A stretch of 64,000 bases of DNA from Ruminococcus sp. (GTDB taxonomy: Bacteria > Bacillota > Clostridia > Oscillospirales > Acutalibacteraceae): NCBI GenBank assembly GCA_017403985.1, contig JAFRDE010000001.1, positions 1-64,000 of the forward strand, given 5' to 3'. The position numbers were made by a program, and so were the translations under genes. The notes under the pieces are model-generated. The model saw only the letters and a program-made list of their open reading frames with translations, was not told the origin of the DNA and searched no databases. This document shows, piece by piece, positions 5,881-47,931 of this stretch (position 1 is its first letter; each line of letters opens with the position of its first letter).

Positions 5881-5981
5881 TTCCTAAAGGAGGTGCCCGA
5901 AGGGCGTAGGGTTGCCAAGCCGTGGCAATCTCAACCTAATATAAAATCTGGTCACTGGTCACTTGCCACTGGTCACTGATA
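5881..5981. repeat. Composite intergenic repeat: hairpins plus CACTNNN 7-bp-period array
   Basis: 5949-5981 is a tandem array with a 7-bp period of the form CACTGGT CACTTGC CACTGGT CACTGAT, the same family seen at 35637, 41449, 42355 and 47897. Just before it, 5881-5935 holds small hairpins (CCTTTCCTAAAGG; GCCCGAAGGGC). The array ends 15 bases before the cmk start, with the AAGGAG site immediately after it. Confidence 0.7.
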
Positions 5982-5995
5982 TAAAGGAGAACACT

Positions 5996-6664
5996 ATGTC
6001 TATCGCTATTGCTATCGACGGCCCCGCGGGAGCCGGAAAATCCACTATCGCCCGCATGGCGGCAAAGGAACTGGGATTCATCTATGTCGACACCGGCGCG
6101 CTGTACCGCGCGATCGGTCTGGCGGCTTTCAGAAGAGGCTTGACAGCCGACGATAAGGACGCGGTCGTCGCGATGCTCCCGTCTATTAAAGTAGAGCTCG
6201 CTTTCAACGAAAAGCACGAACAGATCGTTCTGCTCGACGGGGAGGACGTCAGCGGCTTGATCCGCACGCCTGAGATATCTATGATGGCGTCCGCTGTATC
6301 CGCGATACCCGAGGTCAGAGCCTTTCTGCTCGACTTGCAGCGCGATATGGCACATACTAATAACGTGATCATGGACGGCAGGGATATCGGCACGGTCGTC
6401 TTGCCTGATGCGAAGATCAAGATCTTCCTTTCCGCGTCGCCCGAATGTCGGGCGCGTCGCCGCTATGACGAGCTGATTGAAAAGGGGATGGACGTCAATT
6501 ATGAGGATATCCTCAGTGACGTTATTGCCCGCGATTATGCCGATTCTCACCGCGATATCGCTCCGCTCAAGCCTGCCGACGACGCGATCATGGTCGATAC
6601 GTCCGGAGAGGATCTGGAGACGTCGGTCAATAAACTATTACAGATAATGAGGGATCATCTATGA
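5996..6664 (+). CDS. cmk: Cytidylate kinase
   Basis: 222 residues, normal length. Transfers phosphate from ATP to CMP/dCMP in pyrimidine salvage. The P-loop is IDGPAGAGKST at 7-17, followed by VDTGALYRAIGL; the CMP-binding part includes MDGRDIGTVVLPDAKIKIFLSASPECRARRR. The start is chosen at 5996 because AAAGGAG lies just upstream; further upstream codons fall in the repeat. The stop overlaps the plsC start as ATGA. Pairing with plsC and ispH-rpsA is conserved in Clostridia. Confidence 0.96.
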   Translation: MSIAIAIDGPAGAGKSTIARMAAKELGFIYVDTGALYRAIGLAAFRRGLTADDKDAVVAMLPSIKVELAFNEKHEQIVLLDGEDVSGLIRTPEISMMASAVSAIPEVRAFLLDLQRDMAHTNNVIMDGRDIGTVVLPDAKIKIFLSASPECRARRRYDELIEKGMDVNYEDILSDVIARDYADSHRDIAPLKPADDAIMVDTSGEDLETSVNKLLQIMRDHL

Positions 6665-7278
6665 AGCGCAATCACTTTTACTTTTTCTGGAGGGCTCTTA
6701 CCATGCCCCTCTTCAAACTGATATACCGTACGAAGTATATCGGTAAAGAAAACGTTCCCGCGGATGGTGCATATATCCTCGCGTCCAACCACTGCCATGC
6801 CACCGACCCGATCCTGATCGGCATCGGTCTGAAGCGAGAGATCCATTTCATGGCGAAGGAAGAACTGTTCAAGAATAAATTTGTCAACTGGTTTATCCGC
6901 AAGCTCGGCGCTTTCCCGGTCGACAGGGGCAAGGCTGACACCGGCTCGATCCGCCATTTTGAAGAAGTGCTGAACGAAGGCTCTCTGATCGGTATCTTTA
7001 TCGAAGGCACACGCTCTAAGGACGGCGAGTTCCTGCCGCCGAAGAACGGCTGCAGCCTGATCGCGTGGGATACCAAAGCGGCTGTCATCCCCATTTGTCA
7101 CACCAAGATCGGCAAGCGCGTATGGCTCCACTACGGCAAACCGCTCTCGATGGAGGATCTGGGCTTTGACAAGGGCGGCGCGCGCGAATTCCGCAACGCC
7201 AGCCGCATCATCATGGATCATATCAAAGCGCTGCGCGCGGAGGATCAGGCGGCTTACGAGGCAAAGAAGAATGGCTGA
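6661..7278 (+). CDS. plsC: 1-acyl-sn-glycerol-3-phosphate acyltransferase (PlsC family)
   Basis: 205 residues. The acyltransferase motif NHxxxxD appears as NHCHATDPI (43-51), and the second motif as EGTRSKDGEFLPPKNG, where the usual FPEGTRS reads IEGTRS. Makes phosphatidic acid from lysophosphatidic acid at the membrane. It overlaps cmk by 4 bases and ispH-rpsA by 8, so all three are translationally coupled. A hydrophobic N-terminus (YFFWRALTMPLFKLIY) probably sits on the membrane. Confidence 0.93.
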   Translation: MKRNHFYFFWRALTMPLFKLIYRTKYIGKENVPADGAYILASNHCHATDPILIGIGLKREIHFMAKEELFKNKFVNWFIRKLGAFPVDRGKADTGSIRHFEEVLNEGSLIGIFIEGTRSKDGEFLPPKNGCSLIAWDTKAAVIPICHTKIGKRVWLHYGKPLSMEDLGFDKGGAREFRNASRIIMDHIKALRAEDQAAYEAKKNG

Positions 7279-9418
7279 GATCATTTTGGCTGAGTCCGCT
7301 GGCTTCTGCTTCGGCGTCAAGAGGGCAGTGAATATCGCTTTTGACGTCGCTGATCAGCGTCACGGTGGCTGTACGCTCGGACCGATCATCCACAATAAGG
7401 AAATGGTCAAGGAGCTGTCCGACAGGGGAGTCGTTGCAATCGATACCCCCGAAGAGATTGGAGGACGCGAGCCCGTCATCATCCGTTCCCACGGCGTGAA
7501 GCGCTCCGTCTATGATGAACTGAATCAGCTTGGCGTCGAGTATATCGACGCGACCTGTCCCTTTGTGTCAAAGATACATCAGATCGTATCCGATATGAGC
7601 GGTCAGGGCTATATCATATTACTGGCGGGCGACAAGAACCATCCCGAGGTCCAGGGAATACTCTCCAACTGCGTAGGCAGGTACTATGTTTTCTCAAACG
7701 AAGAAGATTTAAGCGAAATTGCAAAAATAATTCCGCCTGAGAATAATAATGATATTTGTGTCGTTGCTCAAACGACTTTTAACAAAGAAATTTGGAAAAA
7801 TTGTATAATTTTTTTGAAAAAACTATATACAAATGCCAAAATCTTTGATACAATATGTAATGCTACGTCTAAGAGACAGGCAGAAGCGCATGCTTTGTCA
7901 GCGCGCTGCGACTGTATGATCGTGGTAGGCGATCGTTCCAGTTCCAATACCAACAAACTGTATACCATTTGTCAAAAGAACTGTGAGCGCACTTATCTGA
8001 TCGAGACAGCCGCCGAGCTTGATAAGAGCATGTATGCCGATGCTAAGATCATAGGCGTAACAGCCGGCGCTTCTACACCGGAAAGGAATATAAAGGAGGT
8101 ACTGGATACAATGAGTGAAAACACTACATCCAGCGTAAACGAAACTGAGAACTTTGAGGAGATGTTAGAAGAATCTCTGAAGAGTTTAAACACTAATGAA
8201 AGGGTTATGGGTACTGTCGCGAGCATCACTCCGAACGAAGTGTATGTTGAAGTAGACGGCAGAAAGCAGACTGGCTTTATCCCATTTGACGAGTTATCAT
8301 CCACTCCGATTCAGAGCGCCGATGAAGTTGTCAAGGTCGGCGATCGTGTAGAACTGCTGATTATGAAAACCAATGACGTCGAGGGTACCATCATGCTCTC
8401 CAAGCGCAGAGTCGACGCCCAGAAGGGTTACGAAGAGCTGCAGAAGGCATACGATGAGAAAGAAATCCTCACCGGCGTTGTCACCGAAGTCGTATCCGGC
8501 GGCGTGATCGTCGTCTGCAACGATATCCGCGTGTTCATCCCCGCTTCTCAGGCGGCTATGGAGCGCGACGCGAATCTGGAAGAGCTCAAGGGCCAGGAAG
8601 TCAAGTTCCGCCTGATCGAGATGTCCCAGCGCGGCAGAAGAAGAAAGATCATCGGCTCCATCAAGAGCGTTCTCCGCGACGAGTTTGCCGCGAAGCGCGC
8701 TGAGTTCTGGGAGAACTGCGAGGTCGGTAAGGTATACACCGGCGTTGTCCGCTCCCTGACCTCTTACGGTGCGTTCGTCGATCTCGGCGGCGTATCCGGC
8801 ATGATCCACATTTCCGAGCTGTCCTGGCTCCGCATTAAGCATCCCAGCGAGGTCGTCAAGGTCGGCGATACCGTTGAAGTTTATATCAAGGACATCAACA
8901 CCGAAGTCACCCCCAAGAAGATCTCCTTAGGTTACAAGAAGACTGAGGACAATCCGTGGGTTATCCTCGAGAAGGATTATCCTGTCGGCACCGTTGTCAA
9001 GGCTAAGATCGTCGGTCTGACCGCGTTCGGCGCTTTCGCCAACATCATCCCCGGCATCGACGGTCTGATCCATATCTCTCAGATCTCCAACAAGCGCATC
9101 GATAAGCCCTCCGACGTACTCTCCGTAGGCGACGAGGTCGAGGCGAAGATCACCGGCATCGATTTCGAGAAGAAGCGTGTCAGCCTGTCGATCCGCGCTC
9201 TGCTGCCCGAGGCTGAGGAAGTTCAGGAGGCTGAGGCTCCCGCTGAGGAAGAGCCTGAGATCCGTGAGCTCGAGGACGAGGTCCCCGCTGCTGAGGAAGC
9301 TCCCGCAGAAGAAGCTGCTCCCGTAGAAGAGGCACCTGTTGAGGAACCCGCTGCAGAAGAGGCTCCTGTTGAGGAAGCTGCTCCGGCTGAAGAAGCTCCC
9401 GCAGAGGAAGCTGAATAA
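7271..9418 (+). CDS. ispH: Bifunctional HMBPP reductase (IspH) / 30S ribosomal protein S1
   Basis: 715 residues. Residues 1-280 are IspH, the last MEP-pathway enzyme, converting HMBPP to IPP and DMAPP; its [4Fe-4S] ligands are Cys13 (GFCFGV), Cys96 (TCPFV) and Cys196 (CNATS). Residues about 310-640 hold four S1 RNA-binding domains (for example [16 protein letters not shown] near 485 and [16 protein letters not shown] near 572). The last 70 residues are a low-complexity Glu/Ala/Pro tail. This fusion is known in Clostridia. A perfect internal SD and ATG lie exactly at the domain junction (8111). The DNA at about 7690-7860 is much more AT-rich than the rest. The start at 7271 overlaps the plsC stop. 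Confidence 0.95.
8092..8113 (+). promoter_or_regulatory. Internal ribosome binding site at the IspH/S1 junction
   Basis: TAAAGGAGGT (8091-8100) lies 10 bases before an in-frame ATG at 8111, which encodes [10 protein letters not shown] exactly where IspH ends. It could allow a free 435-residue S1 to be made. The DNA shows a perfect SD; use in vivo is inference. Confidence 0.5.
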
Positions 9419-9430
9419 TTGATATGAACT

Positions 9431-9457
9431 GGCGTCCGTAAGGGCGCCTGTTTTTTT
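9431..9457 (+). terminator. Terminator after ispH-rpsA
   Basis: GGCGTCC (9431-9437) pairs with GGGCGCC (9442-9448, one G-U) around GTAA, then TG and seven T. It ends the run that starts with the RpiR gene. Confidence 0.85.
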
Positions 9458-9497
9458 CGCCATTTATCTATATCAGAATATAACGCTGCTGTGTATC

Positions 9498-9527
9498 TGG
9501 TATAATAATTATAATATTGTTTATAAT
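9498..9527 (+). promoter_or_regulatory. Promoter region with three TATAAT boxes before ywlG
   Basis: TATAAT occurs at 9501-9506, 9510-9515 and 9522-9527. The first has an extended -10 (TGG TATAAT). None has a good -35 at 16-18 bp, so which one is used cannot be told from sequence. Confidence 0.45.
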
Positions 9528-9582
9528 ACACATCACTGATCGCCGGTTCTTGCCGCCGGTCAATGATACAAGGGATTTGATA

Positions 9583-10137
9583 ATGATGTTTGAACAAATC
9601 ACAAAGGATACCAACGCGGTATTTTCTCAGCTCATCGAAACCGCAAAGCTGCATGAAGGCTCCGTTGTCGTCCTCGGCTGTTCTACCAGCGAGGTCGGCG
9701 GCGACAGGATCGGCACCCATTCGAGCATGGATATCGCCGCGGCGATCTATGACGGCTTCTTTGATCTGCTTAAGGAAAAGGGAATCTTCCTTGCCGCTCA
9801 ATGCTGCGAGCATTTGAATCGCGCGCTGGTCGTTGAACGCGCGCTTGCCGAAAAGTACAATATTCCGATCGTGAATGCCGTGCCTCAGCCGAAAGCAGGC
9901 GGCAGCAGCGCAACTACCGCGTACGCGCGCTTTGACGATCCCGTTCTGGTGGAGCATATCAAAGCCGACGCCGGCGTTGATATCGGCGGTACGCTGATTG
10001 GAATGCATCTGAAAGAGACTGCTGTGCCTCTGCGCCTGCCGCAGAAGAAGATCGGCGAGGCGTTCGTCGCGTCCGCGCGCACCAGAGCAAAGTTTATCGG
10101 AGGCTCCCGCGCCGTATATGATGAGAGTTTGTTATAA
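9583..10137 (+). CDS. ywlG: YwlG/TIGR01440 (UPF0340) family protein
   Basis: 184 residues. Recognised by VVLGCSTSEVGGDRIGTHSSMDIAAAIYDG near the N-terminus, AAQCCEHLNRALVVER in the middle, and GGTLIGMHLKETAVPLR near the end. The family is conserved in Firmicutes; its biochemical role is not established. AGGGA lies 7 bases before ATG 9583; a second ATG follows immediately at 9586. It is probably cotranscribed with the HD gene 12 bases downstream. Confidence 0.85.
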   Translation: MMFEQITKDTNAVFSQLIETAKLHEGSVVVLGCSTSEVGGDRIGTHSSMDIAAAIYDGFFDLLKEKGIFLAAQCCEHLNRALVVERALAEKYNIPIVNAVPQPKAGGSSATTAYARFDDPVLVEHIKADAGVDIGGTLIGMHLKETAVPLRLPQKKIGEAFVASARTRAKFIGGSRAVYDESLL

Positions 10138-10149
10138 GGAAGTGCTGTT

Positions 10150-10728
10150 ATGATGACTGCTAAAGACGAATTTATCAAGATCTATACCGAGAACATCACC
10201 CGCCGCGGTTCCGCGGAGCTGCTCGAATGGATCCAGAAGACCGATTTCTTTACCGCTCCCGCCAGCACGAAGTATCACTGTGCCTGTGAGAACGGTCTTG
10301 TCATGCACTCCGTCAGCGTGTTCAATACGCTGGTAGAGAAGCATTTCGATGAAGATACCGACAGCATGGAGAGCTTTGCAATCTGCGCGCTGCTGCACGA
10401 CTTATGCAAGGCGCAGTTCTACAAGACCTCAACCCGCAACGTCAAGAATGATGAGACCGGTCAGTGGGAAAAGGTGCCGTATTATACGATCGAGGACGGT
10501 TTCCCGTACGGTCACGGTGAAAAGAGCGTCTTTCTGATCGAGCGCTTTATGCGCCTGAAGCTGGACGAGGCGATGGCGATCCGTTGGCATATGGGCGGCT
10601 TTGACGATAACAACGGCATGTATGTCAGCAAGGCGTATGATAAATACCCCCTCGCCGTCAAGCTGCATTTAGCAGATTTAGAGAGCACATATCTGAGGGA
10701 AAAGGGAACTTCCGCAGTCCGCAGATAA
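10150..10728 (+). CDS. HD-domain protein (putative phosphohydrolase)
   Basis: 192 residues. HD-superfamily metal ligands are visible: His in GLVMHSVSVFNTL, the HD pair in ALLHDLCKAQFY, His in YGHGEKSVFLIERF, His in IRWHMGG, and an Asp in KLHLADLEST. HD proteins hydrolyse nucleotides or related phosphoesters using divalent metal. The substrate is unknown. AAGGAAG precedes the start. No membrane segment. Similar proteins occur as stand-alone cytosolic hydrolases in Clostridia. Confidence 0.75.
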   Translation: MMTAKDEFIKIYTENITRRGSAELLEWIQKTDFFTAPASTKYHCACENGLVMHSVSVFNTLVEKHFDEDTDSMESFAICALLHDLCKAQFYKTSTRNVKNDETGQWEKVPYYTIEDGFPYGHGEKSVFLIERFMRLKLDEAMAIRWHMGGFDDNNGMYVSKAYDKYPLAVKLHLADLESTYLREKGTSAVRR

Positions 10729-10752
10729 CATTTTTTAAAATGATACGTTTCC

Positions 10753-12885
<2,133 letters not shown>

Positions 12886-12901
12886 GTAAAATTGATTTAT
12901 G

Positions 12902-12936
12902 ATCCCTGTCCGAAAGGACGGGGATTTCTTTTGTTG
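12902..12936 (+). terminator. Terminator after ligA
   Basis: ATCCCTGTCC (12902-12911) pairs with GGACGGGGAT (12916-12925, one G-U) around a GAAA tetraloop, followed by TTCTTTTGTT. Confidence 0.85.
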
Positions 12937-13004
12937 GAATGAAACGGACAGGTTCTATCCGTCCTCTTGTCCACATATGTTTTATTGACAGGAAGGTGAA
13001 AGCG

Positions 13005-13928
13005 ATGGAAAAGAAAAGTCTGGATTATATCATGGATAACTTGCCCGAAAGGATGGTAAAAGCGCTGCAAAAAGCACGAGGAGCGTTTGAGGACAGGGTG
13101 ACGGAGATCGTTTTACGCACGGAGCGACCCTTGTGTATCTATGAATCGAATCGTCTGTTTTTTATTACGGAAAACGGTTATTTATCGGATTCTGTACTTA
13201 CCGGAGATATGATAACTGTCGGTGCATCCGAGATGAAGGATACCGTTCTTCGCCTGTGTGATTACTCCGTATACGCCTACCAGCATGAGATCAACAGCGG
13301 CTATATCACTATCGGCGGCGGCGTCAGGGTTGGGCTTTGCGGTCAGGCGGTCATGTCGGACGGGCGTGTTTCTAATGTGCGGAATATCTCGAGTCTGTGT
13401 TTTCGTATCGCACGTGACGTAAAAGGCTGCGCCGACAGTTTACTGTCGAAGATCGATCCGTTGAAAGGCGTACTGATATGCGGCGCTCCCGGCAGCGGCA
13501 AAACCACCATGATCCGCGATGTGGCGCGGCAGTTGTCCTATCGCTGCAGGGTGAGTGTCGCGGACGAGCGGTGCGAGCTTTCAGCCTGCAGCCGCGGTGA
13601 AATGGGCTTCGGTTTGGGATTGTGCGACATTTTCGCGGGTTATCCGAAAGGGATCGCGGCACATCAGGCGATCCGCAGTATGGCGCCTCAGGTCATCGTG
13701 TGCGACGAACTGGGCGATCAAAGCGACGTCGAAATGCTGTCGTATTCCTTAAGATGCGGCGTATCATTCATCGCTACCGTTCACGCGTCATCTATGCATG
13801 ATCTGAGAAACAGAGTGATTACCAAAGATTTGATCAATACCGGAGCCTTTCGTTATATCGTTTTTATGAACGCCGATGCGCCTGGCAGAATTGACAGGAT
13901 CTACGAAATGTGTGATTCACATGGTTAA
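13005..13928 (+). CDS. spoIIIAA: Stage III sporulation protein AA (ATPase)
   Basis: 307 residues. The Walker A motif is GAPGSGKT at 160-167, preceded by GGGVRVGLCGQAV, a SpoIIIAA family mark; Walker B-like VIVCDELGD follows. It is the cytoplasmic secretion-type ATPase of the SpoIIIA-SpoIIQ channel that links mother cell and forespore. The start at 13005 has GGAAGGTGAAAGCG upstream. First gene of a complete eight-gene operon; its stop overlaps the spoIIIAB start. In known systems this operon is transcribed by SigE, whose gene is at 29107; I could not see a convincing SigE promoter here. Confidence 0.95.
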   Translation: MEKKSLDYIMDNLPERMVKALQKARGAFEDRVTEIVLRTERPLCIYESNRLFFITENGYLSDSVLTGDMITVGASEMKDTVLRLCDYSVYAYQHEINSGYITIGGGVRVGLCGQAVMSDGRVSNVRNISSLCFRIARDVKGCADSLLSKIDPLKGVLICGAPGSGKTTMIRDVARQLSYRCRVSVADERCELSACSRGEMGFGLGLCDIFAGYPKGIAAHQAIRSMAPQVIVCDELGDQSDVEMLSYSLRCGVSFIATVHASSMHDLRNRVITKDLINTGAFRYIVFMNADAPGRIDRIYEMCDSHG

Positions 13929-35331: not shown

Positions 35332-35644
35332 GAGAATAGCCGTATTCGGCGATAAGGAAAGCATTTACGGATTCGCGGCTCTCGGTCTTGATACTTATTA
35401 TTTCAATCCCGATGAGGATTATGTTTCCGTATTCAGAAAGCTGTGTCAGAGCGGAAATTACGGTATCATCTATGTTACCGAAGCGGCGGCTGTCTTTCTG
35501 GATAAAGAGATCGCGAAATATCGCAGCGAGCCTTCTCCCGCAATCATCCTGATACCCGGCGTATCGGGCAACACGGGCGAGGGGCTGTCGGCTGTCAGAC
35601 TGTCTGTCGAAAAAGCTGTCGGCAGCGACATATTCAGTGATTAG
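35324..35644 (+). CDS. ntpF: V-type ATPase subunit F
   Basis: 106 residues. Small Rossmann-like subunit: IAVFGDKESIYGFAALGLDTY, YGIIYVTEAAAVFL, and PAIILIPGVSGNTGEGL. Part of the central shaft. Its last codons (AGT GAT TAG) are already part of the 7-bp-period repeat that fills the gap to ntpA, so the stop may have come from the repeat. Confidence 0.92.
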   Translation: MSERIAVFGDKESIYGFAALGLDTYYFNPDEDYVSVFRKLCQSGNYGIIYVTEAAAVFLDKEIAKYRSEPSPAIILIPGVSGNTGEGLSAVRLSVEKAVGSDIFSD

Positions 35645-35745
35645 TGGTCAGTGACCAGTGATTAGTTATTATAATTATTTGATGTTGTTATGTGCGTGAG
35701 CAGTTTTCTACTTGCCACTGGTCACTTGTCACTGGCAACTAATAA
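35637..35745. repeat. 7-bp-period repeat with opposing arms, ntpF-ntpA gap
   Basis: The left arm (35637-35667) has GTGACCAGTGATTAG-type units; the right arm (35709-35743) has the complement (CACTGGT CACTTGT CACTGGC). The two arms can fold on each other across about 40 AT-rich bases. It lies inside the operon, just before the ntpA ribosome binding site. Confidence 0.7.
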
Positions 35746-35760
35746 AAGGAATGATACATT

Positions 35761-38914: not shown

Positions 38915-39013
38915 GGGTTAACGGTTAACGGTTAACGGTTAACGGTTTATTTATCAATCGGGTGCGGGTGTCCCGCCATTCACCGTTCACCATTCACCAT
39001 TCACCGTTCACCA
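38915..39013. repeat. 7-bp-period repeat with opposing arms, ntpB-ntpD gap
   Basis: The left arm is about 4.5 units of GGTTAAC (38918-38946); the right arm is about five units of CCRTTCA (38976-39013). GGTTAAC and the complement GGTGAAC pair imperfectly. Same design as the CACTNNN family but a different heptamer. Confidence 0.75.
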
Positions 39014-39900: not shown

Positions 39901-39918
39901 TAGTCCTGAGGTGATTGT

Positions 39919-40464: not shown

Positions 40465-41310
40465 TTGAGTAAGACAACACCCCATTTATTTCGCAGAATA
40501 GTGTTGATCGGTCTTTGCGTAACCATCTTAATGACCGCTTATACTCTGATTCTCGCGCCGGGCGTAGGTGCTGCAGCAAGTGATGCCACTAAAACAGAAA
40601 TCAAAAATGATAACGATAATATAGTATCGACTGAAGATGACCTTCTCACACAGAGAGCCATCGTAATCGATGAAGCGAAGAAAGAAGCGCAGGAAGTAGT
40701 AACCGAACAGCTTGCCATTCAGGAAGCTAAGGCGGCTACCGAGGCGCCCACAGAAGCTGCAGCCGCAGCGACAACAGCCGCAGCGACAACTGCATCGGAA
40801 ACTTCCGAGTCTGTTAGCTCCACCGATTATTCAGACGACAGCAGCTACGCATCCGACGATGAGGACTACAGCGATAGCAACACTATCTCTGCATCCGGAT
40901 CCGGTGACTATTTGTTAGACATCGACAACCCCGACTATGACTATGTAGGTTACAGCGTATCTCTCAACGATGAGGACAGAGATATGACAGAGCGCATCCT
41001 CATGGGCGAGGCAGGCGGCGAAGGCTATATCGGTATGGCTCTTGTTGCTCAGTGTATCAGAGATACCTATGTTAATGGCAACTACAGCAGTATCGCTCAG
41101 CTTTTGAAGCAGAACGGCTATTATGGCTCTACTTCTATGTCAGGTTCTTCCACCGCGAAAGAAGTTGTTAACTACATCTTTGATCAGGGCGGTTCCGCTG
41201 TACAGCACAACATCCGCATCTTCTATGCGACCAACATGTGCTCCAGCTCTTGGCATGAGGCTCAGGACTTCGTTGTCCAGTACAACTATGTCAGATTCTT
41301 CAATTATTGA
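40465..41310 (+). CDS. Secreted SleB/CwlJ-type cell wall hydrolase
   Basis: 281 residues from a TTG start that has AGGAGG seven bases upstream; in-frame ATG codons further upstream have no site. Signal peptide (VLIGLCVTILMTAYTLILA, then GVGAAAS). A Thr/Ser/Ala/Asp-rich linker (about 85-155) precedes a C-terminal Hydrolase_2 domain with ERILMGEAGGEGYIGMALVA, its Glu likely catalytic, ending YNYVRFFNY. Members cleave peptidoglycan, some in spore cortex during germination. The linker suggests a vegetative or surface form. Confidence 0.8.
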   Translation: MSKTTPHLFRRIVLIGLCVTILMTAYTLILAPGVGAAASDATKTEIKNDNDNIVSTEDDLLTQRAIVIDEAKKEAQEVVTEQLAIQEAKAATEAPTEAAAAATTAAATTASETSESVSSTDYSDDSSYASDDEDYSDSNTISASGSGDYLLDIDNPDYDYVGYSVSLNDEDRDMTERILMGEAGGEGYIGMALVAQCIRDTYVNGNYSSIAQLLKQNGYYGSTSMSGSSTAKEVVNYIFDQGGSAVQHNIRIFYATNMCSSSWHEAQDFVVQYNYVRFFNY

Positions 41311-41340
41311 TAAATCGGCATAAAACATTCAAAAATCACG

Positions 41341-41389
41341 AAGAAATCAAGTATTTTTCTTAGATTAATGCTTGATTTCTTTTTTTATT
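41341..41389 (+). terminator. Terminator after the wall hydrolase
   Basis: AAGAAATCAAGTATT (41341-41355) pairs with AATGCTTGATTTCTT (41367-41381, one G-U), followed by a T run. The right arm contains the -35 of the next promoter. Confidence 0.85.
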
Positions 41390-41400
41390 TGTGTTAAAAT
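41372..41400 (+). promoter_or_regulatory. Promoter of the rpsB operon
   Basis: TTGATT (41372-41377), 17 bp, TAAAAT (41395-41400). The -35 lies in the terminator stem of the preceding gene. Confidence 0.5.
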
Positions 41401-41414
41401 ATTTAGGCATTACG

Positions 41415-41445
41415 CACGCCGACGGTTTGACAGTCGGGTGTTTTA
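41415..41445 (+). promoter_or_regulatory. Leader hairpin before rpsB
   Basis: CAC(G)CCGAC (41415-41423, one bulged G) pairs with GTCGGGTG (41433-41440), followed by TTTTA. It falls at the start of the rpsB transcript and may be an attenuator or an S2-binding leader; this is inference. Confidence 0.35.
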
Positions 41446-41448
41446 GTA

Positions 41449-41549
41449 TAGTGATTAGTTGCCAGTGATTAGTGACCAGTTGTCGGCGGGCTCTGCCCGC
41501 ACCCGATTTATAATGAACTTGTCACTTGCCACTTGTCACTTACCACTAA
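41449..41549. repeat. 7-bp-period repeat with opposing arms in the rpsB leader
   Basis: Left arm 41449-41481 (AGTGATTAGTTGCCAGTGAT type), a central hairpin GCGGG (41487-41491) with CCCGC (41497-41501), right arm 41520-41549 (GTCACTTGCCACTTGTCACT type). It is part of the rpsB 5' leader. Confidence 0.7.
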
Positions 41550-41606
41550 AACTGTCCTGTCAAAATACAAGGCCGCGGCGGAGGTTTTTAACCTAAGGAG
41601 GAAAAT

Positions 41607-42347
41607 ATGGCAGTAGTTTCTATGAAACAGCTTCTGGAGGCAGGCGTACACTTCGGCCACCAGACGAGAAGATGGAACCCCAAGATGGCTCCCTACATCT
41701 TCACCGAGCGCAACGGTATCTATATCATCGATCTGCAGAAGACCGTCGTTAAGCTCGAAGAAGCGTACAACTTTATCCGTGAGATCTCCATGGAAGGCAA
41801 GAGCGTGCTGTTTGTCGGCACCAAGAAGCAGGCTATGGAATCCGTCAAGGACGAGGCTACCCGCGCCGGCGCTTACTATGTAAATGCAAGATGGCTGGGC
41901 GGCATGCTCACTAACTTCACCACCATCCGCAGAAGAATCGCTCGCTTGAAGCAGCTTCGCACCATGGAAGAGGACGGCACGTTTGATCTGCTGCCCAAGA
42001 AGGAAGTTATCAAGCTGAACCTCGAGATCGAAAAGCTCGAGAAGTTCCTCGGCGGTATCAAGGACATGACCGAGATGCCCGGCGCTCTGTTCATTGTTGA
42101 CCCGAGAAAAGAGAAGATCGCCGTAGCTGAGGCGAAGAAGCTCGGTATCCCGATCGTTGCGATCGTTGATACCAACTGCGATCCCGACGACGTCGACTAT
42201 GTCATCCCCGGCAACGACGACGCGATCCGTGCCGTTAAGCTGATCTCCGGCGCAATGGCTAACGCGATCATCGAGGGTAAGGAAGGCCAGATGGGCGCTG
42301 CCGCTGTAGAGCCTGAGGCTGAAGCCGACGACATCGTAGAAGAGTAA
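41607..42347 (+). CDS. rpsB: 30S ribosomal protein S2
   Basis: 246 residues, normal length. Marks: [80 protein letters not shown] short acidic tail ends the protein. AAGGAGGAAAAT precedes the start. First gene of the conserved rpsB-tsf-pyrH-frr block. Confidence 0.98.
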
Positions 42348-42354
42348 TTATTTA

Positions 42355-42462
42355 GTGACCAGTGGCAAGTGGCCAGTGGTCAGTTGATGAAAGTCATTAG
42401 TAGTGATGACAACATATTATAGTAATATCTGGTCACTGGTCACTGATCACTGACCACTATAA
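42355..42462. repeat. 7-bp-period repeat with opposing arms, rpsB-tsf gap
   Basis: Left arm 42355-42387 (AGTGACCAGTGGCAAGTGGC type), right arm 42431-42461 (CTGGTCACTGGTCACTGATC type). The arms are near complements. The tsf ribosome binding site follows at once. Confidence 0.75.
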
Positions 42463-42479
42463 CGAAAGGAATGGTATAT

Positions 42480-43403
42480 ATGGCATTTACAGCTCAGGAT
42501 GTAAAGGCTCTTCGTGAGAAGACCGGCTGCGGTATGATGGACTGCAAAAAGGCTCTTACCGAAGCGAACGGCGATATGGAAGCCGCTATTGACGTATTAA
42601 GAAAGCAGGGTCTGGCGAAGCAGGCGAAGAAGGCTGACCGCATCGCTGCGGAAGGCATCGCTCTCGCTATCACCAACGACGATAACACCGCCGGCGTAGT
42701 GATCGAGGTCAACGCTGAGACCGACTTCGTTGCGAAGAACGCTGATTTCCAGGCGTTTGTCAACACCTGCGCTCAGACCGTTATGGCTGAGAATCCCGCT
42801 GATGTAGAAGCGCTGCTGGCCTGCAAGGCTGTCGGTTCCGACATGACCGTTGCCGAGCTGCTTCAGGAAAAGGTTCTGACCATCGGTGAGAACATTCAGA
42901 TCCGCCGCTTTGAGAAGATCGACGGCGTTTGCGTCGCTTACGTTCACGCAGGCGGCAAGATCGGCGTTCTGGTCAACTTTGAAACCGATATCGACAGCTC
43001 TAACCCCGAGTTCGTCGCTTACGGCAAGGACATCGCGATGCAGATCGCGGCTCTGAACACGCCTTTCCTCAACGAGGCTGAGGTTCCCGCTGAGGTCATC
43101 GAGCATGAGAAGAGCATCATGGTCGAGCAGATGAAGAACGATCCCAAGATGGCGAATAAGCCTGAGCAGGTTCTGCAGAACATCGTCAAGGGCAAGATGG
43201 GCAAGTACTTCAAGGAGAACTGCCTCGTCGATCAGGAGTTCGTCAAGGACAGCTCCATGACTGTCGGCAAGTACACCGAAGCTACCGCCAAGAAGCTCGG
43301 CGGCTCTATCGTCATCAAGAAGTTTATTCGCTTTGAGAAGGGCGAGGGCATCGAGAAGCGTCAGGACGACTTCGCTGCAGAAGTTGCCAGCATGGTGCAG
43401 TAA
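42480..43403 (+). CDS. tsf: Elongation factor Ts
   Basis: 307 residues. N-terminal UBA-like domain (VKALREKTGCGMMDCKKALTEANGDMEAAIDVLRKQG in parts), then the core with VEVNAETDFVAKN, the motif that recharges EF-Tu. GAAAGGA lies nine bases before ATG 42480; the ATG at 42471 is too close to it. Confidence 0.97.
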   Translation: MAFTAQDVKALREKTGCGMMDCKKALTEANGDMEAAIDVLRKQGLAKQAKKADRIAAEGIALAITNDDNTAGVVIEVNAETDFVAKNADFQAFVNTCAQTVMAENPADVEALLACKAVGSDMTVAELLQEKVLTIGENIQIRRFEKIDGVCVAYVHAGGKIGVLVNFETDIDSSNPEFVAYGKDIAMQIAALNTPFLNEAEVPAEVIEHEKSIMVEQMKNDPKMANKPEQVLQNIVKGKMGKYFKENCLVDQEFVKDSSMTVGKYTEATAKKLGGSIVIKKFIRFEKGEGIEKRQDDFAAEVASMVQ

Positions 43404-43428
43404 TCATATTCAACCGAATCAACTTTTC

Positions 43429-43464
43429 AAAGAGCTGTCGCAGCAATGCGGCGGCTCTTTTTTG
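43429..43464 (+). terminator. Terminator after tsf
   Basis: AAAGAGCTGTCGC (43429-43441) pairs with GCGGCGGCTCTTT (43448-43460, two G-U), followed by more T. Confidence 0.8.
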
Positions 43465-43546
43465 TGTTCAATTCTTTGTTTACGTGAAGTCAGAAATATT
43501 TATCGTTTGATTAGTGAATTTTTAATGAACATTTACCATGTTTTAC

Positions 43547-43575
43547 TTTACAAAAAAGGCAATTTGTAGTACAAT
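43547..43575 (+). promoter_or_regulatory. Promoter of pyrH
   Basis: TTTACA (43547-43552), 17 bp, TACAAT (43570-43575). Together with the tsf terminator it makes pyrH the start of a second transcription unit. Confidence 0.6.
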
Positions 43576-43611
43576 ATATACAATTATGAAATTATTATGG
43601 GAGTGATATGT

Positions 43612-44325
43612 GTGAAACCCAAATATAAACGCGTTTTATTGAAATTATCCGGTGAATCTTTAGCCGGTGTATCGAAGCACGGCATCGATTTCGAGACCGT
43701 CACCTCTTACTGTGAGCCGATCAAAAAGCTCGTTGAAGATGGTGTTCAGGTCGGTATCGTCGTCGGCGGAGGCAACTTCTGGAGAGGACGCTCCAGCGGT
43801 AAGATGGACCGCACCAGAGCCGACCATATGGGCATGCTCGCCACCGCGATCAACGCGTTGGGCGTAGCCGACGCCTTGGAGTCGATCGGCGTTGACGTCA
43901 GAGTTCAGACCGCTATCTCGATGCGTCAGGTCGCCGAGCCCTACATCCGCAATCGCGCGATCCGTCATCTGGAAAAGGGGAGGGTCGTCATCTTCGGATG
44001 CGGCACCGGTAACCCGTTCTTCTCAACCGATACGGCGGCCGCTTTGAGAGCCGCTGAGATCGAAGCGGAGATTATCCTGAAGGCGACGCTGGTCGACGGC
44101 GTTTATGACAAGGATCCCAACCTCTACAAAGACGCGGTTCGATATGACTGCCTTTCGTTCCAGGAAGTCCTTGAAAAGGATCTGAAGGTCATGGATTCGA
44201 CTGCTGCCGCGATCTGCAGGGAAAACAGCATCGATCTGATGGTGTTCAGCATCCTCGATCCCTCAAACATCTATGAATCTGTTTGCGATACCAATATCGG
44301 CACCCTCGTGACGAATCGCAAATGA
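43612..44325 (+). CDS. pyrH: UMP kinase
   Basis: 237 residues. Amino-acid-kinase fold: [62 protein letters not shown]. Makes UDP from UMP. GGGAGTGA lies six bases before GTG 43612; ATG 43597 has no site before it. Confidence 0.97.
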
Positions 44326-44370
44326 TATATTGCCGGTTGTAATTTTTATTCACATAACAAGGAGGACAAC

Positions 44371-44925
44371 ATGAAAGAAGTATTAAAGAAAAACGATGAG
44401 CGCATGCAGCGCCGCATTGACCATCTGACAGACGAGTTTAAATCCATCAGAGCCGGCAGAGCCAATCCCGCCGTCTTGGATAAGATCACGGTTGATTATT
44501 ACGGCGTACCTACTCCCATTAATCAGCTTTCTTCCATCCAGGTGACCGAAGCGAGAACACTGGTGATCCAGCCTTATGACGCGTCCTCGCTCAAGTCGAT
44601 CGAAAAAGCGATCCAGATGTCCGACGTCGGTATCAATCCGCAGAATGACGGTAAGGTTCTCCGTCTGATCTTCCCGCCTCTCACCGAGGATAAGCGTAAG
44701 GAGATCGCGAAGGATATCGCCCGTATCGCAGAGGATAGCAAGGTCCAGATCCGCAACGTGCGCCGTGATACCATTGAAAAGCTCAAAAAGATGAAGAAGA
44801 GCGGCGAGCTCACCGAGGACGATCTTGAAGAAGGCGAGAAGAAGGTCCAGAAGTCGACCGATAAGTTTATCAAGCAGATCGACGAGCTGACCGAAAAGAA
44901 GAAAAAAGAGATCATGGAGATCTGA
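44371..44925 (+). CDS. frr: Ribosome recycling factor
   Basis: 184 residues, exact family length. RAGRANPAVLDKITVDYYGVPTPINQLSSI near the N-terminus and the helical C-terminal hairpin (EEGEKKVQKSTDKFIKQIDE). Splits post-termination ribosomes with EF-G. AAGGAGGACAAC precedes the start. Confidence 0.98.
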   Translation: MKEVLKKNDERMQRRIDHLTDEFKSIRAGRANPAVLDKITVDYYGVPTPINQLSSIQVTEARTLVIQPYDASSLKSIEKAIQMSDVGINPQNDGKVLRLIFPPLTEDKRKEIAKDIARIAEDSKVQIRNVRRDTIEKLKKMKKSGELTEDDLEEGEKKVQKSTDKFIKQIDELTEKKKKEIMEI

Positions 44926-45016
44926 CGCACGCGTCTTGAATTTACCTTTTACAACGCCGGTGTAATGAAGATTCATCACGGCGTGTCAATGATACCGTTG
45001 TATTAGGAGTAACACT

Positions 45017-45763
45017 ATGGCTCTTTTCAAAAAGAAACAAGTTCAGGAGCTTTCCATAGAAGATATTCAGCTTCCCGAACATATCGGCATCATCATGGAC
45101 GGCAACGGCAGATGGGCGAAGAAGCGCGGACTGCCTCGCTCGGCGGGACACACCGCGGGCGCGCAAACCTTCCGTAAGATCGCCCGTTACTGCAGCGATA
45201 TCGGCATCAAATATCTGACCGTATATGCGTTCTCGACCGAGAACTGGCGCCGTCCGAGCGACGAGGTTGACGCCTTGATGCGATTGTTCAAAGATTATCT
45301 GCAGGAAGCGATCCGCGATTTCAAGGATGACAGCATCGTGCTGAAATTCATCGGAGACCGTTCCGCGTTCTCGCCGGAGCTGCTCAGCCTGATGAATGAG
45401 AACGAGGAGGAATCCTGTGATCGCGACGGCATGGTGCTGAATATCGCCATGAATTACGGCGGCAGAGCGGAGCTCGTGACTGCGATCCGTGAGATGGCGA
45501 ACGAGGTAAAGGACGGCTCTTTGAGTCCGGAAGATATTTCCGAGGAGCTTGTTTCACAGCATTTATATACTAAGGGTCAGCCCGACCCCGACTTGATCAT
45601 CCGCCCCAGCGGTGAGAACCGAACCTCGAATTTCCTGCTGTGGCAAAGCGCGTACGCCGAGTACGTGATCATGGATGTACTTTGGCCTGATTTTACTAAA
45701 GAAGATCTGAATCAGGCTTTGATAGAATTCGCGAAGCGCAACAGGCGCTTCGGCGGAGTATGA
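45017..45763 (+). CDS. uppS: Undecaprenyl diphosphate synthase (isoprenyl transferase)
   Basis: 248 residues. HIGIIMDGNGRWAKKRGLPR with the catalytic Asp, YAFSTENWRRP, PDPDLIIRPSGENRTSNFLLWQ, and YVIMDVLWPDF. Builds the C55 carrier for peptidoglycan from FPP and IPP supplied by ispH, dxr and ispG in this window. TTAGGAGTAAC precedes the start. Confidence 0.97.
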   Translation: MALFKKKQVQELSIEDIQLPEHIGIIMDGNGRWAKKRGLPRSAGHTAGAQTFRKIARYCSDIGIKYLTVYAFSTENWRRPSDEVDALMRLFKDYLQEAIRDFKDDSIVLKFIGDRSAFSPELLSLMNENEEESCDRDGMVLNIAMNYGGRAELVTAIREMANEVKDGSLSPEDISEELVSQHLYTKGQPDPDLIIRPSGENRTSNFLLWQSAYAEYVIMDVLWPDFTKEDLNQALIEFAKRNRRFGGV

Positions 45764-45765
45764 TT

Positions 45766-45862
45766 ATTGAGTGATCGATACCGTGTGATCGGTGATAAGA
45801 ATCGGCTGCGGACAGTTCCCGCCGATAATCTAAACGCCGATCACGGTAACGGATCACTGATT
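45766..45862. repeat. Imperfect inverted-arm repeat, uppS-cdsA gap
   Basis: Left arm AGTGATCGATACCGTGTGAT (from 45769) is an imperfect complement of GATCACGGTAACGGATCACT (from 45838). Units near GTGATCG recur at about 7 bp, so it may be a decayed member of the 7-bp-period family. Confidence 0.45.
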
Positions 45863-45876
45863 TGAGGAGGATGGAG

Positions 45877-46695
45877 ATGAAAACGCGATTAATCACCTCT
45901 GGAGTTGCTATTGTTGTTGCGGTCGCGCTGATTATTTTAAGTTCATTTTTCAGTATTGTCGCAACGATAGCGCTTTCGCTGGTCAGCGTTATATTATGCG
46001 GTGAGTATTTGTCGGCAAAGAAATTGAATAAGGATTTAAAGCTGTTTATACCGTCACTGGCATTTGCTTTGCTGATCCCGATGCTTTCCGGCATTAAGTA
46101 TGTATGTTATATTCCGCTGTTTATCTTTGTGTTCGGAACGTGCGTATTGTCTGTTGTTTTCCACCGTTCCGTCAAAACGGAGGATATGATGTTCTCGCTG
46201 GTCGGCGTCACTTTGATTTCGGTTTCCATGTCAGCGCTGAACGTACTGGTCGTTACCGACCCGACTCATGCGGCTTTCTGGCTCGTGTTCTGTCTTGGCG
46301 TTCCGTGGATCGCCGATTCTGCCGCTTATTTTGCCGGCAGTTATCTCGGCAAGCACAAGCTCTGTCCCGAGATCAGCCCCAATAAAACGATAGAGGGCGC
46401 CATCGGCGGTATCCTGGGCGGTACCCTGTCCGCGCTGCTGATCGGCGGTATCTTCAACCTGATCTACGGCGAGGTCACCGTTTACTACGGCGTGCTGGTA
46501 CTGATCGGATTTTTGAATTCCATCATTTCCATCTTCGGCGATCTGACCTTCTCGGTCATCAAGAGAAGCTGCAAGATCAAGGATTTCGGCTCTATCATGC
46601 CCGGTCACGGCGGCTTACTCGATCGCTTTGACTCCGTCATCTTCTGTATTCCCGTTGTCTTTATCTTTTCACAGTTCTTCTATCTGTGCGTATAA
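45877..46695 (+). CDS. cdsA: Phosphatidate cytidylyltransferase
   Basis: 272 residues with about eight membrane helices. C-terminal signature: SIFGDLTFSVIKRSCKIKDFG, GSIMPGHGGLLDRFDSVIF, the CDS family pattern. Makes CDP-diacylglycerol from the phosphatidic acid produced by PlsC. ATG 45877 is six bases after GAGGAGG; 45871 touches it. Confidence 0.95.
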   Translation: MKTRLITSGVAIVVAVALIILSSFFSIVATIALSLVSVILCGEYLSAKKLNKDLKLFIPSLAFALLIPMLSGIKYVCYIPLFIFVFGTCVLSVVFHRSVKTEDMMFSLVGVTLISVSMSALNVLVVTDPTHAAFWLVFCLGVPWIADSAAYFAGSYLGKHKLCPEISPNKTIEGAIGGILGGTLSALLIGGIFNLIYGEVTVYYGVLVLIGFLNSIISIFGDLTFSVIKRSCKIKDFGSIMPGHGGLLDRFDSVIFCIPVVFIFSQFFYLCV

Positions 46696-46714
46696 TCGGA
46701 TCATATAATCTACT

Positions 46715-47857
46715 ATGGTACATAATCTATCTATATTAGGCTCTACGGGTTCGATCGGAACGCAGACGCTCGACGTCGCCCGTAATCTGGATCTGAAAAT
46801 TTCTGCGCTTTCTGCTTACAGCAGTATCGAACTCCTGGAAGATCAGATCCGTGAATTCCGTCCTGCTTTGGCGGTCGTTTACGATGAAAAGAAAGCGGCT
46901 GATCTGAAAGTCAGGATCGCCGACACCGATACCAAAGTGCTCAGCGGTATGGACGGACTCTTCGAGATCTGCCACGACAGCTCCGAGCTTTTGGTCAATT
47001 CGGTCGTCGGCATGGTCGGATTGGCTCCGACGATGGAGGCAATCAAGGCGAAGAAAAATATCGCCTTCGCCAATAAAGAGACGCTGGTCGCCGGCGGAGA
47101 GCTGGTGATGAACGCCGTACGGGAAAACGGCGTGAAGCTGCTTCCCGTCGACAGCGAACACAGCGCGATCTTCCAATGCCTGCAGGCGGCGCCGTCTGAT
47201 AAAAAGCTCAAAAAGATCCTGCTCACCGCGTCCGGCGGACCTTTCTTCGGCAAAACCGCCGATGAATTAAAGGATGTTACCGTTGAACAGGCGCTGAATC
47301 ACCCTAACTGGGACATGGGCGCAAAAATAACCATCGATTCTGCTACGATGATGAACAAGGGACTCGAGATCATCGAGGCGGCATGGCTGTTCGATACCGA
47401 TCCCGACGATATCGAAGTGGTCGTTCACCGCGAGAGCATCATCCATTCGATGGTAGAATTCACCGACAACTCGATCCTGGCACAGCTCGGTATGCCGGAT
47501 ATGCGCATCCCGATCCAGTACGCGATCACGTATCCCAACCGCGTACCGTCGCCGGTACCTGAGATCGACTGGAAGACGCTGTCGAAGATGACCTTTTACA
47601 GCGCCGACGACACTACCTTCAAATGTCTCGCCGCCTGTAAGTGCGCGATGAAGAAGGGCGGGCTGTATCCCGCTGTCGCCAACGGGGCGAACGAGGTTGC
47701 CAACAAGCTGTTCAGAGAGAAGAAGATATCTTTCCTCGATATCGGCGATCTGGTTTCCGCCGCCGTGGATCAATTGACGGTGGAACCCGCAAAAACTCTG
47801 GACGACGTTTTCGCCGCCGATCAGCTGGCGCGCGACTTCGTCATCAATAACATATAA
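46715..47857 (+). CDS. dxr: 1-deoxy-D-xylulose-5-phosphate reductoisomerase
   Basis: 380 residues. NADPH-binding LSILGSTGSIGTQTLDV, substrate/metal region ANKETLVAGGELV, LLPVDSEHSAIFQCL, TASGGPFFG, and MNKGLEIIEAAWLF. Second step of the MEP pathway. The SD is weak (CGGA 15 bases upstream), which suggests coupling with cdsA. Confidence 0.97.
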   Translation: MVHNLSILGSTGSIGTQTLDVARNLDLKISALSAYSSIELLEDQIREFRPALAVVYDEKKAADLKVRIADTDTKVLSGMDGLFEICHDSSELLVNSVVGMVGLAPTMEAIKAKKNIAFANKETLVAGGELVMNAVRENGVKLLPVDSEHSAIFQCLQAAPSDKKLKKILLTASGGPFFGKTADELKDVTVEQALNHPNWDMGAKITIDSATMMNKGLEIIEAAWLFDTDPDDIEVVVHRESIIHSMVEFTDNSILAQLGMPDMRIPIQYAITYPNRVPSPVPEIDWKTLSKMTFYSADDTTFKCLAACKCAMKKGGLYPAVANGANEVANKLFREKKISFLDIGDLVSAAVDQLTVEPAKTLDDVFAADQLARDFVINNI

Positions 47858-47896
47858 AGCCTTTCCTCAGAGGGTAAGACTTTATTAATACTATTA

Positions 47897-47931
47897 ACTG
47901 GACACTGGTCACTTGCCACTGTCCACTGTAT
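47897..47931. repeat. 7-bp-period array before rseP
   Basis: GACACTGGTCACTTGCCACT and following CACTGTA: about four units of CACTNNN. Unlike other sites, only one arm is present. It directly precedes the rseP ribosome binding site. Confidence 0.65.

Follow-up and report, generated by a model that had tools for sequence, protein, structure and literature searches.

Several spacers in the 64-kb stretch of Ruminococcus sp. DNA analysed here (the window) contain tandem repeats with a period of seven bases, often as two opposing arms, which raises the question of what kind of element these repeats belong to and why it is found between genes. That the sites are genuine period-7 arrays, as stated in the initial annotation, was borne out by reading the sites one by one, by TRF rows and by a lag-7 scan. 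Period-7 TRF rows were obtained at 5948, 35634/35636/35710, 38916/38976, 41517, 42354 and 42429, together with a 14-bp-period row at 41450 alongside the row at 41517; site 47897 was detected by the lag-7 scan only, with a score of 11. At a score of at least 12, the lag-7 scan of the window gave six segments compared to none in 20 second-order Markov copies; lags 14 and 15 gave three segments each, and lags 4-6 and 8-13 gave none. The period-15 TRF rows of the window fall inside gene calls. Two arms are present at 35636, 38916, 41450 and 42354, whereas by the formula scan the sites at 5948 and 47897 show a single arm each (Table 1). As RNA, the four two-armed sites are predicted to fold with z values of -3.5 to -5.0. 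A hairpin fold was also found at 45766 (z -5.1), which had been described as a decayed site, but no lag-7 array. At the gathering score, Rfam gave no match in the window, and in six further loci of the same genome the matches were limited to RNase P, cobalamin and glmS and did not include an arm or a core. The names cmk, ntpA, ntpD, rpsB, uppS, cdsA and rseP are presumptive and follow in part the initial annotation; tsf is the only named gene that was used as a search query.

Table 1. Heptamer arms, hairpin cores and a possible decayed element in the window (strand refers to the G-rich strand of arms).
Feature	Position	Strand	Remark
Single heptamer arm, CACTNNN in + sense	5948..5978	-	17 nt before called cmk start
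Left arm, AGTGRYN dialect	35636..35671	+	stop TAG of upstream gene (35642-35644) inside arm
Right arm	35703..35747	-	ends directly before ntpA RBS; formula extent
Left arm, GGTTAAC dialect	38916..38947	+	10 nt past upstream stop codon
Hairpin core B, GGCGGGACACCCGCACCCGA on - strand	38958..38977	-	inner side of right arm before ntpD
Right arm, GGTGAAC/GGTGAAT dialect	38971..39012	-	16 nt before ntpD start; formula extent (lag-7: 38976-39012)
Left arm, rpsB leader	41450..41487	+	follows hairpin of attenuator-like look (by eye)
Hairpin core B, rpsB leader	41485..41505	+	exact match to genus-wide core pattern
Right arm, rpsB leader	41510..41547	-	
Left arm after rpsB	42354..42391	+	6 nt past rpsB stop
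Right arm before tsf	42421..42458	-	directly ahead of tsf RBS
Possible decayed element, uppS-cdsA gap	45766..45868	none	hairpin fold with core-like centre (by eye), lag-7 array absent
Single arm upstream of rseP	47890..47927	-	

The heptamers of this genome are dialects of one degenerate unit, RRTKRNN. The two that had been regarded as unrelated, GGTTAAC/CCRTTCA and CACTNNN, both fit this formula when read on the G-rich strand. A wider count showed that the window is not a special case: across a 464-kb sample of the same genome we found one architecture with several heptamers and a strong position bias, comprising 74 arrays compared to 0-4 in controls, 72 of them outside gene calls. The sample consists of stretches of four long contigs known beforehand to contain CACT arrays, so that the array density may be biased upwards. 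A length of 31-33 nt, equivalent to four units plus RRT, was observed for 40 of the 74 arrays. Among 84 arrays from relatives, which fit a formula derived from this genome less well (50 at a value of at least 0.95), the commonest lengths were 31 nt (13 arrays) and 32 nt (16 arrays). A preference for about four tandem 7-nt units was therefore seen in both sets, and a few long arrays exist, e.g. one of 122 nt in locus L061.

The polarity of the arrays follows the gene edges. In 67 of 72 arrays the G-rich strand is directed away from the closest gene edge, towards the spacer, whatever the gene direction (p 6e-15), and the same inward polarity was found for 65 of 76 arrays in 80 loci of relatives. 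The arrays had been thought to lie only in gaps within operons or in leaders; although 60 of the 72 are in co-directional gaps, 11 are in convergent gaps and one is in a divergent gap, and divergent gaps are less avoided in relatives (7/76). The outer edges coincide with stop codons or lie immediately 5' of ribosome binding sites, and sometimes they follow terminators. Edge distances were determined for the 63 of 72 arms that point away from a gene at most 60 nt distant, the other nine being omitted. On the stop side, 31 of 37 arms begin between -9 and +6 nt from the stop; on the start side, 17 of 26 lie 13-22 nt before the called start, distances which are approximate since gene starts came from a simple caller of our own that is sometimes late (cdsA, tsf, rseP). 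TAG accounts for 11 of 18 stops within arms compared to 48 of 393 genes overall. A distance of more than 25 nt to the gene edge was found for 23 formula arrays; eight of them have a T-run within 3 nt of their outer edge, compared to 4% of intergenic positions; one of the 23 lies behind the RNase P RNA gene and one behind a cobalamin riboswitch. All four two-armed convergent gaps have only -8 to -3 nt outside the arms by formula extents (-5 to -1 by lag-7 edges), and none of 30 array-free convergent gaps measures 25 nt or less. Of 19 two-armed co-directional gaps, six retain 66-675 nt outside the arms.

The two arms of a gap share a dialect but not the letters at K, an argument against the maintenance of a stem. 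The arms are inverted but only partly complementary, which corrects the description as near complements; K letters match in 49 of 96 cases compared to 51.7 expected from same-dialect swaps (the count includes the pair C15:99564, with the same outcome without it), and in 22 of 48 in the AGG dialect. The proposal that arm pairing is the property being maintained was thus not supported. Pairing via a register shift or reversed order was searched for and not found, and best-shift arm similarity is slightly below that of swaps (p 0.018, uncorrected). The distance between arms, previously put at 30-50 nt, is 28-44 nt in the window (TRF/lag-7 edges) but ranges from 0 to 244 nt in the larger sample (formula extents).

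On their inner side the arms often have a hairpin core with a covarying stem. In the sample, all 20 strict copies of core B have an array on the outer side, of which 19 were recognised by score and one by eye, and the core is preceded by the arm end and often by GAATGG or TTTCGG (by eye). Compensatory types at the stem (n=34) include CG 20, AT 8 and TA 2 at pair 1 and GC 23, AT 6 and TA 3 at pair 4; since pairing was required at four of five places, pair percentages lean to pairing and the evidence lies in the compensatory types. A looser anchor gives 110 hairpins, of which 34 are accompanied by an array according to the score, compared to 0 of 50 in the backward-read control. When all five stem pairs are required, the figures are 23 of 38 and 0 of 5; the other 15 comprise two decayed arrays (in the window and L045), a few core-like copies and unrelated hairpins. 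A further genus of the family has core-less arms (L146), and core B is absent from several array-rich genomes, which indicates that cores are not universal ends.

Comparison with relatives revealed that arrays are patchy between species. They are absent from some orthologous gaps, and among the gaps listed the orthologous positions are empty or carry other dialects. No match to the formula pattern was found in 17 of 60 genomes of the genus; the backward-read control of this count gives 0 or 1 in these 17 genomes, while in array-rich genomes it also matches arrays and is not a clean background. Loci L043 and L047, with 88% identity across 20 kb, have the same unit order in the left arm. In the one ortholog pair measured, conservation is higher in the arms than in the interior (1/61 compared to 13/108 plus a 10-nt indel, p 0.019).

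We consider that the arms are the ends of short non-autonomous DNA inserts which occupy whole spacers between genes, a reading to which we assign a probability of about one half. It draws on the sharp length mode, the inward polarity independent of gene direction, the common arm dialect, the covarying core stem, the species patchiness, the arm-free orthologous gaps and the outer edges flush with functional sequence. At each end of an insert there would be an arm about 31 nt long, made of four heptamers and three further nucleotides of RRTKRNN, with the G-rich strand directed into the spacer; in this genus a hairpin core would lie inside many arms, and some inserts seem to bring their own terminator. 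A recombinase may take the heptamers as terminal repeats and insert the cassette, and the flanking spacer would be lost at or after insertion, leaving only a stop codon, terminator or ribosome binding site outside the arms. Arms that extend over a stop codon would be tolerated, since TGA, TAG or TAA is frequent on the G-rich strand of the unit and, as 7 = 1 mod 3, successive units close additional frames. For the host the consequences are probably small, consisting in new stop codons, spacer length and sometimes a terminator. Apart from arm pairing, the earlier idea of a spreading or maintenance process acting on architecture and not on sequence is the best reading. Several points stand against inserts: no autonomous partner or mover enzyme came to light, with Y1_Tnp not found in the own genome and RVT_1 not found in many array-rich genomes; target-site duplications were not detected; 33 of 56 array-bearing gaps have a single recognised arm; cores are not universal; six of the 19 two-armed co-directional gaps retain sequence outside the arms; divergent gaps are less avoided in relatives; and the unlike K letters of the two arms are not predicted by a simple terminal-repeat copy.

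Candidate enzymes were searched for in 60 genomes of the genus; the genomes are MAGs that differ in completeness, so that little weight attaches to any single absence. The presence of a Y1 transposase (RAYT) does not track arrays, and it was rejected as mover: PF01797 has a match at E 0.001 in 31 of the 60 genomes but none in the own genome (G000), is lacking in array-rich G004, G005, G042, G052, G057, G059, G065, G069 and G073, and is present in array-rich G012, G023 and G050 as well as array-free G009, G010, G011, G016, G043, G044, G046, G062 and G071. Reverse transcriptase (RVT_1) was rejected likewise; it was found in 21 genomes, including three matches in the own genome, but not in array-rich G004, G005, G042, G052, G058, G059, G065 and G069. 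Ku was found in none of the 60 genomes. Target-site duplications were not detected (d 4-9, p 0.07-0.67), with array edges uncertain by a few nucleotides.

A function at the RNA level is possible but unlikely. Paired within the transcript, the arms would make a hairpin located after the stop codon and ahead of the ribosome binding site, serving translational coupling, mRNA stability or attenuation, and the significant RNA folds of the window elements (z -3.5 to -5.1), the predominance of co-directional gaps and the better conservation of arms in the one measured ortholog pair agree with this. However, K letters do not covary, polarity follows gap edges and not transcription, and 33 of 56 array-bearing gaps have only one recognised arm. 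Moreover, in some two-armed convergent gaps a terminator-like hairpin lies between the arms (by eye), so that one transcript would not hold both. It is also unlikely that, where the spacer is broken or gapped, a polymerase adds about four heptamers of a single dialect to both 3' ends and the lengthened ends are then joined with filler DNA. Such end addition, telomere-like in that both 3' ends carry the G-rich strand, would account for the inward polarity at gene edges, a common dialect without letter copying at K, the length quantum, core-less arms and the missing target duplication; repeated events would also drive the edges to the limits of functional sequence. Nevertheless, we know of no such end-extending enzyme here, Ku and, in many array-rich genomes, RVT_1 were not found, and core B is joined to an arm in all 20 strict copies, as would be expected of an inserted module more than of filler.

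Slippage-driven simple heptamer repeats, similar to STRR and kept in spacers by selection, have a low probability. The few long arrays would fit slippage, and polymerase contact length has been proposed as the cause of heptamer over-representation in some bacteria (PMC4692102). Yet slippage does not predict the sharp length mode, strict polarity, common dialect of opposite arms or linked cores, and it is at odds with the unchanged unit order in one ortholog pair and with the 17 genomes lacking a pattern match. Least credible are G-quadruplexes, as proposed for Xanthomonas and Nostoc; the printed Xanthomonas case has a four-unit preference and like geometry, but four GGG tracts occur in none of 80 arrays (best 31 nt each) and any GGG in nine, which excludes G3 quadruplexes here.

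Heptamer repeats are known elsewhere. STRR of filamentous cyanobacteria are short tandem heptamers dispersed in spacers, for which we know of no paired inward arms or cores. REP sequences have a conserved 5' tetranucleotide such as GTAG, a feature not found in core B. Compared to MITEs, the arms are inverted and share a dialect but not exact sequence, and target-site duplications are lacking. REPINs are small extragenic hairpin modules, occurring as singlets and inverted doublets and tied to RAYT (Y1) transposases (Bertels and Rainey 2011, PMC3116915). The modules of our genome likewise occur as singlets and inverted doublets, the latter of unlike cores by eye; however, RAYT was not found in this genome, and the abstract of that paper does not describe heptamer arms. 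Also comparable are the intergenic heptamers GGGAATC of Xanthomonas and GGGGA(C/T)T of Nostoc, which have a four-unit preference, the G-rich strand near the 5' neighbouring ORF in any orientation, stop codon overlap and under-represented divergent gaps, with 70 and 75 convergent pairs in two Xanthomonas genomes and few in Nostoc, the Xanthomonas geometry being explained by G-quadruplexes (Rehm et al. 2015, PMC4692102). Calothrix heptanucleotides are cited there as well. Our arrays share the heptamer, the four units, the inward G-rich strand, the overlap with stops, the scarcity in divergent gaps and the convergent pairs. They differ in having several dialects in one genome, where one GGG-bearing family was studied per organism, in lacking G3 quadruplex potential, and in their arm-linked hairpin cores, which the sections consulted of that study do not mention. 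The Xanthomonas repeats also correct the view that counterparts are only cyanobacterial, while a clostridial description was indeed not found in the open-access literature, a search that scarcely covered subscription journals.

Heptamer spacer repeats have so far been reported piecemeal and explained case by case by quadruplexes, translational regulation or slippage. In our genome several dialects follow one length, one polarity and one placement rule, which removes G3 quadruplexes as a common cause and points to a DNA-level process marking functional edges. Such a process, if found, would explain a class of intergenic DNA as well as the rewriting of operon spacers between related gut bacteria, and in practice the arms could mark where functional sequence ends. 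With little confidence, one may extend this to several phyla: a single unrecognised process would write four-unit heptamer ends, in a locus-specific dialect with one ambiguous letter, onto gene-bearing DNA, at the 3' ends exposed by breaks in spacers, similar to telomere healing, and the repeats of Xanthomonas, Nostoc, Beggiatoaceae and Ruminococcus would be its traces. The TAACTGA repeats of Beggiatoaceae, Cyanobacteria and Bacteroidetes are located just upstream of starts, some over stops, mostly in 2-4 copies with one inverted case in 170 sets, and were read as a post-transcriptional binding site (MacGregor 2015, PMC4679880). Only one heptamer is involved there, but rotation of its reverse complement gives AGTTATC, a match to RRTKRNN, so that its G-rich strand also points away from the gene. 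Altogether, three of five published heptamers fit the formula, with a chance of 20% each (p 0.057), which is suggestive only.

The heptamer repeats that the initial annotation had placed between genes of the window, every one of which was inspected in the sequence, recur widely elsewhere in the genome. In the window, a scan for self-match at fixed lags (score at least 12) returned six segments at lag 7, three at lag 14 and three at lag 15, none at lags 4–6 and 8–13, and none at lag 7 in 20 Markov copies; the period-15 TRF rows lie within gene calls. The genome to which the window belongs comprises 2.68 Mb in 63 contigs. By tsf, the sole gene used as a query for gene identity, its nearest named relative is the MAG "uncultured Ruminococcus" RUG14402 (96% protein identity); other gene names follow the initial annotation or are putative. 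Together with 400 kb taken as 20 stretches from four long contigs (464 kb in total; coding share of each contig 82–88% by our own gene calls), the window contained 74 arrays at a score of at least 10, compared with 0–4 in five third-order Markov copies, a density that may be biased upwards because CACT arrays had been found on these four contigs beforehand. Of these arrays, 72 lie outside gene calls and 40 measure 31 nt (21 arrays), 32 nt (10) or 33 nt (9). Across 81 sources (the window and 80 loci of relatives, 1.26 Mb), at score 12 period 7 returned 77 and period 14 returned 40, and periods 5, 6, 8, 9, 10, 12 and 15 returned 3, 14, 0, 12, 3, 13 and 9, respectively.

Read in one frame, the G-rich strand of the arrays repeats the unit RRTKRNN, which occurs in dialects such as AGTKAGG, AATKAGG, GGTKAAY, AGTGRYN, AATGAAT and others. 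A scan with this formula alone found 80 arrays, 78 of them intergenic, in the same own-genome data from which the formula had been derived, and 1, 0 and 0 in Markov copies. Of 84 arrays in relatives, 50 reach a fit of at least 0.95, and the mean fit was 0.914 versus 0.663 on the opposite strand.

In 67/72 arrays of our sample, at stop and start edges alike, the G-rich strand points away from the nearest gene edge and into the gap, as it does in 65/76 arrays of relatives. Of the 72 arms, 63 lie no more than 60 nt away from the gene from which they point; among these, stop-side arms begin −9 to +6 nt from the stop codon in 31/37 cases and start-side arms lie 13–22 nt upstream of the called start in 17/26. 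In two-armed gaps of the formula scan the arms face each other, with an additional left arm in one gap; pairs were defined as facing, and back-to-back arms were absent from all gaps among those listed. Two-armed convergent gaps leave −8 to −3 nt outside the arms (formula extents, 4/4), that is, no remainder, and none of 30 array-free convergent gaps is 25 nt or shorter. Two-armed co-directional gaps leave at most 27 nt in 13/19 cases and 66–675 nt in six. For 23 formula arrays the distance to a gene edge exceeds 25 nt; in 8 of them a run of at least four T stands no further than 3 nt from the outer edge (background, 4% of intergenic positions), and one of these eight comes after the RNase P RNA gene and another after a cobalamin riboswitch. 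Of the 72 arrays, 60 occupy co-directional gaps, 11 convergent gaps and one a divergent gap (gaps available: 270, 37 and 36). Relatives have 59, 10 and 7 of 76, so that divergent gaps are less strongly avoided in them.

The arm contains the native stop codon in 18 genes, and this stop is TAG in 11, compared with 48/393 genes overall (Fisher 5e-7). In 37/74 arrays the G-rich strand has stops in all three frames, and in 72/74 in at least two, so that an arm overrunning a native stop usually provides a new one.

Hairpin cores lie at the inner side of the arms, core A (AAACGCTGACGCGTTTTGGATTTGTA), B or C being assignable by rough pattern in 36/80 arrays. Core B reads GGCGGGC-NNN-GCCCGC-ACCCGATT on the G-rich strand, and all 20 strict copies in our sample have an array immediately 5′ (19 by score, the last by eye). 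Among 34 array-bearing copies, anchored on the flank with at least 4/5 stem pairs, two pairs show compensatory types; genome-wide, GCGGGC/GCCCGC, GTGGGC/GCCCAC and GAGGGC/GCCCTC versions were listed, along with some unpaired ones. Cores A and C were assigned by eye. In 14 of 19 listed pairs both cores could be assigned, likewise by eye, with A or C at one end and B at the other; another species (L065) seemingly has A-like cores at both ends, and arms without a core occur in another genus of the family (L146). A terminator-like hairpin in the interior of some elements is alike between loci by eye and thus seems to be part of the insert.

Formula matches occur in 43 of 60 genus genomes and are absent from 17. 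Core B, present in 20, is missing from all 17 array-free genomes and from the array-rich G005, G008, G042, G054 and G069. A search of 295 genomes of the order found the AGTKAGG dialect in 8, which represent six genera; one genome, from another genus, has 46 overlapping matches, and the arms in L147 and L149 again lie over or after stop codons (by eye). Among the 27 relatives' loci listed for rpsB-tsf, the spacer is short and arm-free in L039, L040, L049, L052 and L054–L059, carries arms in L046, L051 and L053, of dialects differing among these and the window, and holds other hairpins in others. In ntpB-ntpD and ntpF-ntpA, multiple dialects and multiple unrelated hairpins alternate between species. 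Two relatives, L043 and L047 (88% identity over 20 kb), share one ntpF-ntpA element; at this one locus the arms differ at 1 of 61 positions, the interior at 13 of 108 plus a 10-nt indel, and the upstream coding sequence at 7 of 59.

We give a probability of about 0.5 to the reading that the elements are non-autonomous inserts with heptamer termini. Ends of inserted DNA fit the sharp length, the inward polarity, the covarying cores linked to the arms and the varying presence of elements from species to species, and arm polarity tracks gap edges, not transcription. Both edges are flush in convergent gaps, which indicates that the old spacer is gone; insertion must therefore be coupled to, or precede, loss of dispensable sequence. 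DNA with heptamer ends would insert into a spacer, dispensable parts of which would be lost during insertion or afterwards.

Comparison of the arms (23–24 pairs) bears on the alternatives. Identity is 0.765 within an element versus 0.636 when arms are swapped between elements (0/5000 swaps), and the AGT/AAT sub-dialect is common to both arms (p 0.002). Within dialects, agreement between the arms at K (G or T) is at the chance level (49/96, expected 51.7; AGG dialect 22/48, expected 24.6), so the arms are at K neither mutual copies nor held complementary, and the anticipated covariation of arms did not appear there. The elements nevertheless are predicted to fold (z −3.5 to −5.1), and a maintained RNA stem appears less likely. 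End addition, the main alternative, explains shared dialects without shared letters better than insertion does, although no enzyme for it is known. Slippage is a less likely source of the arrays, as are quadruplexes, which Rehm et al. (PMC4692102) proposed for heptamer repeats of Xanthomonas and Nostoc.

The repeats described in that paper share with the Ruminococcus arrays a preference for four units and nearness to the 5′ neighbouring ORF whatever its orientation; they overlap stop codons and are under-represented between divergent ORFs, with 70 convergent pairs in one Xanthomonas genome, 75 in another and few in Nostoc. TAACTGA repeats, described by MacGregor (PMC4679880), end just upstream of start codons, some overlapping stops. 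In the parts of the heptamer-repeat literature covered, no report of multiple dialects per genome or arm-linked cores was found, nor any clostridial report in open-access literature, most subscription journals being outside its scope. Three of five published heptamers match RRTKRNN (p 0.057).

Coordinates of individual features (L, sampled loci; C15, own-genome contig)
Source	Position	Feature	Remark
Window	5873-5945	different spacer repeat (CTCCCTTT..AAAGGAGGTGCCCGAAGGGCG..GGCAATCTCAA)	upstream of cmk arm; similar repeat in ntpF/ntpA gap of L038
Window	9284-9413	imperfect tandem repeats, 15-63 nt	3′ end of 7271-9418 gene call
Window	41485	core B copy	array assigned by eye
Window	50350-50475	hairpin GTAGGGGAGGGGCTTGCTCCTCCCG, gap after ispG	similar in rpsB-tsf gap of L041, L045, L047, L048, L050; perhaps another spacer-filling hairpin family
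C15	124005	element with interior terminator-like hairpin	
C15	138709	element with interior terminator-like hairpin	
L061	833-954	AAGTCCA array, 122 nt	well above 31-nt norm
L065	6643-6883	gap with multiple arms, unlike cores	apparently nested elements
L117	2780-3055	gap with multiple arms, unlike cores	apparently nested elements
L126	4049-4623	two-armed element with core B	directly after terminator-like T-run of RNase P RNA gene
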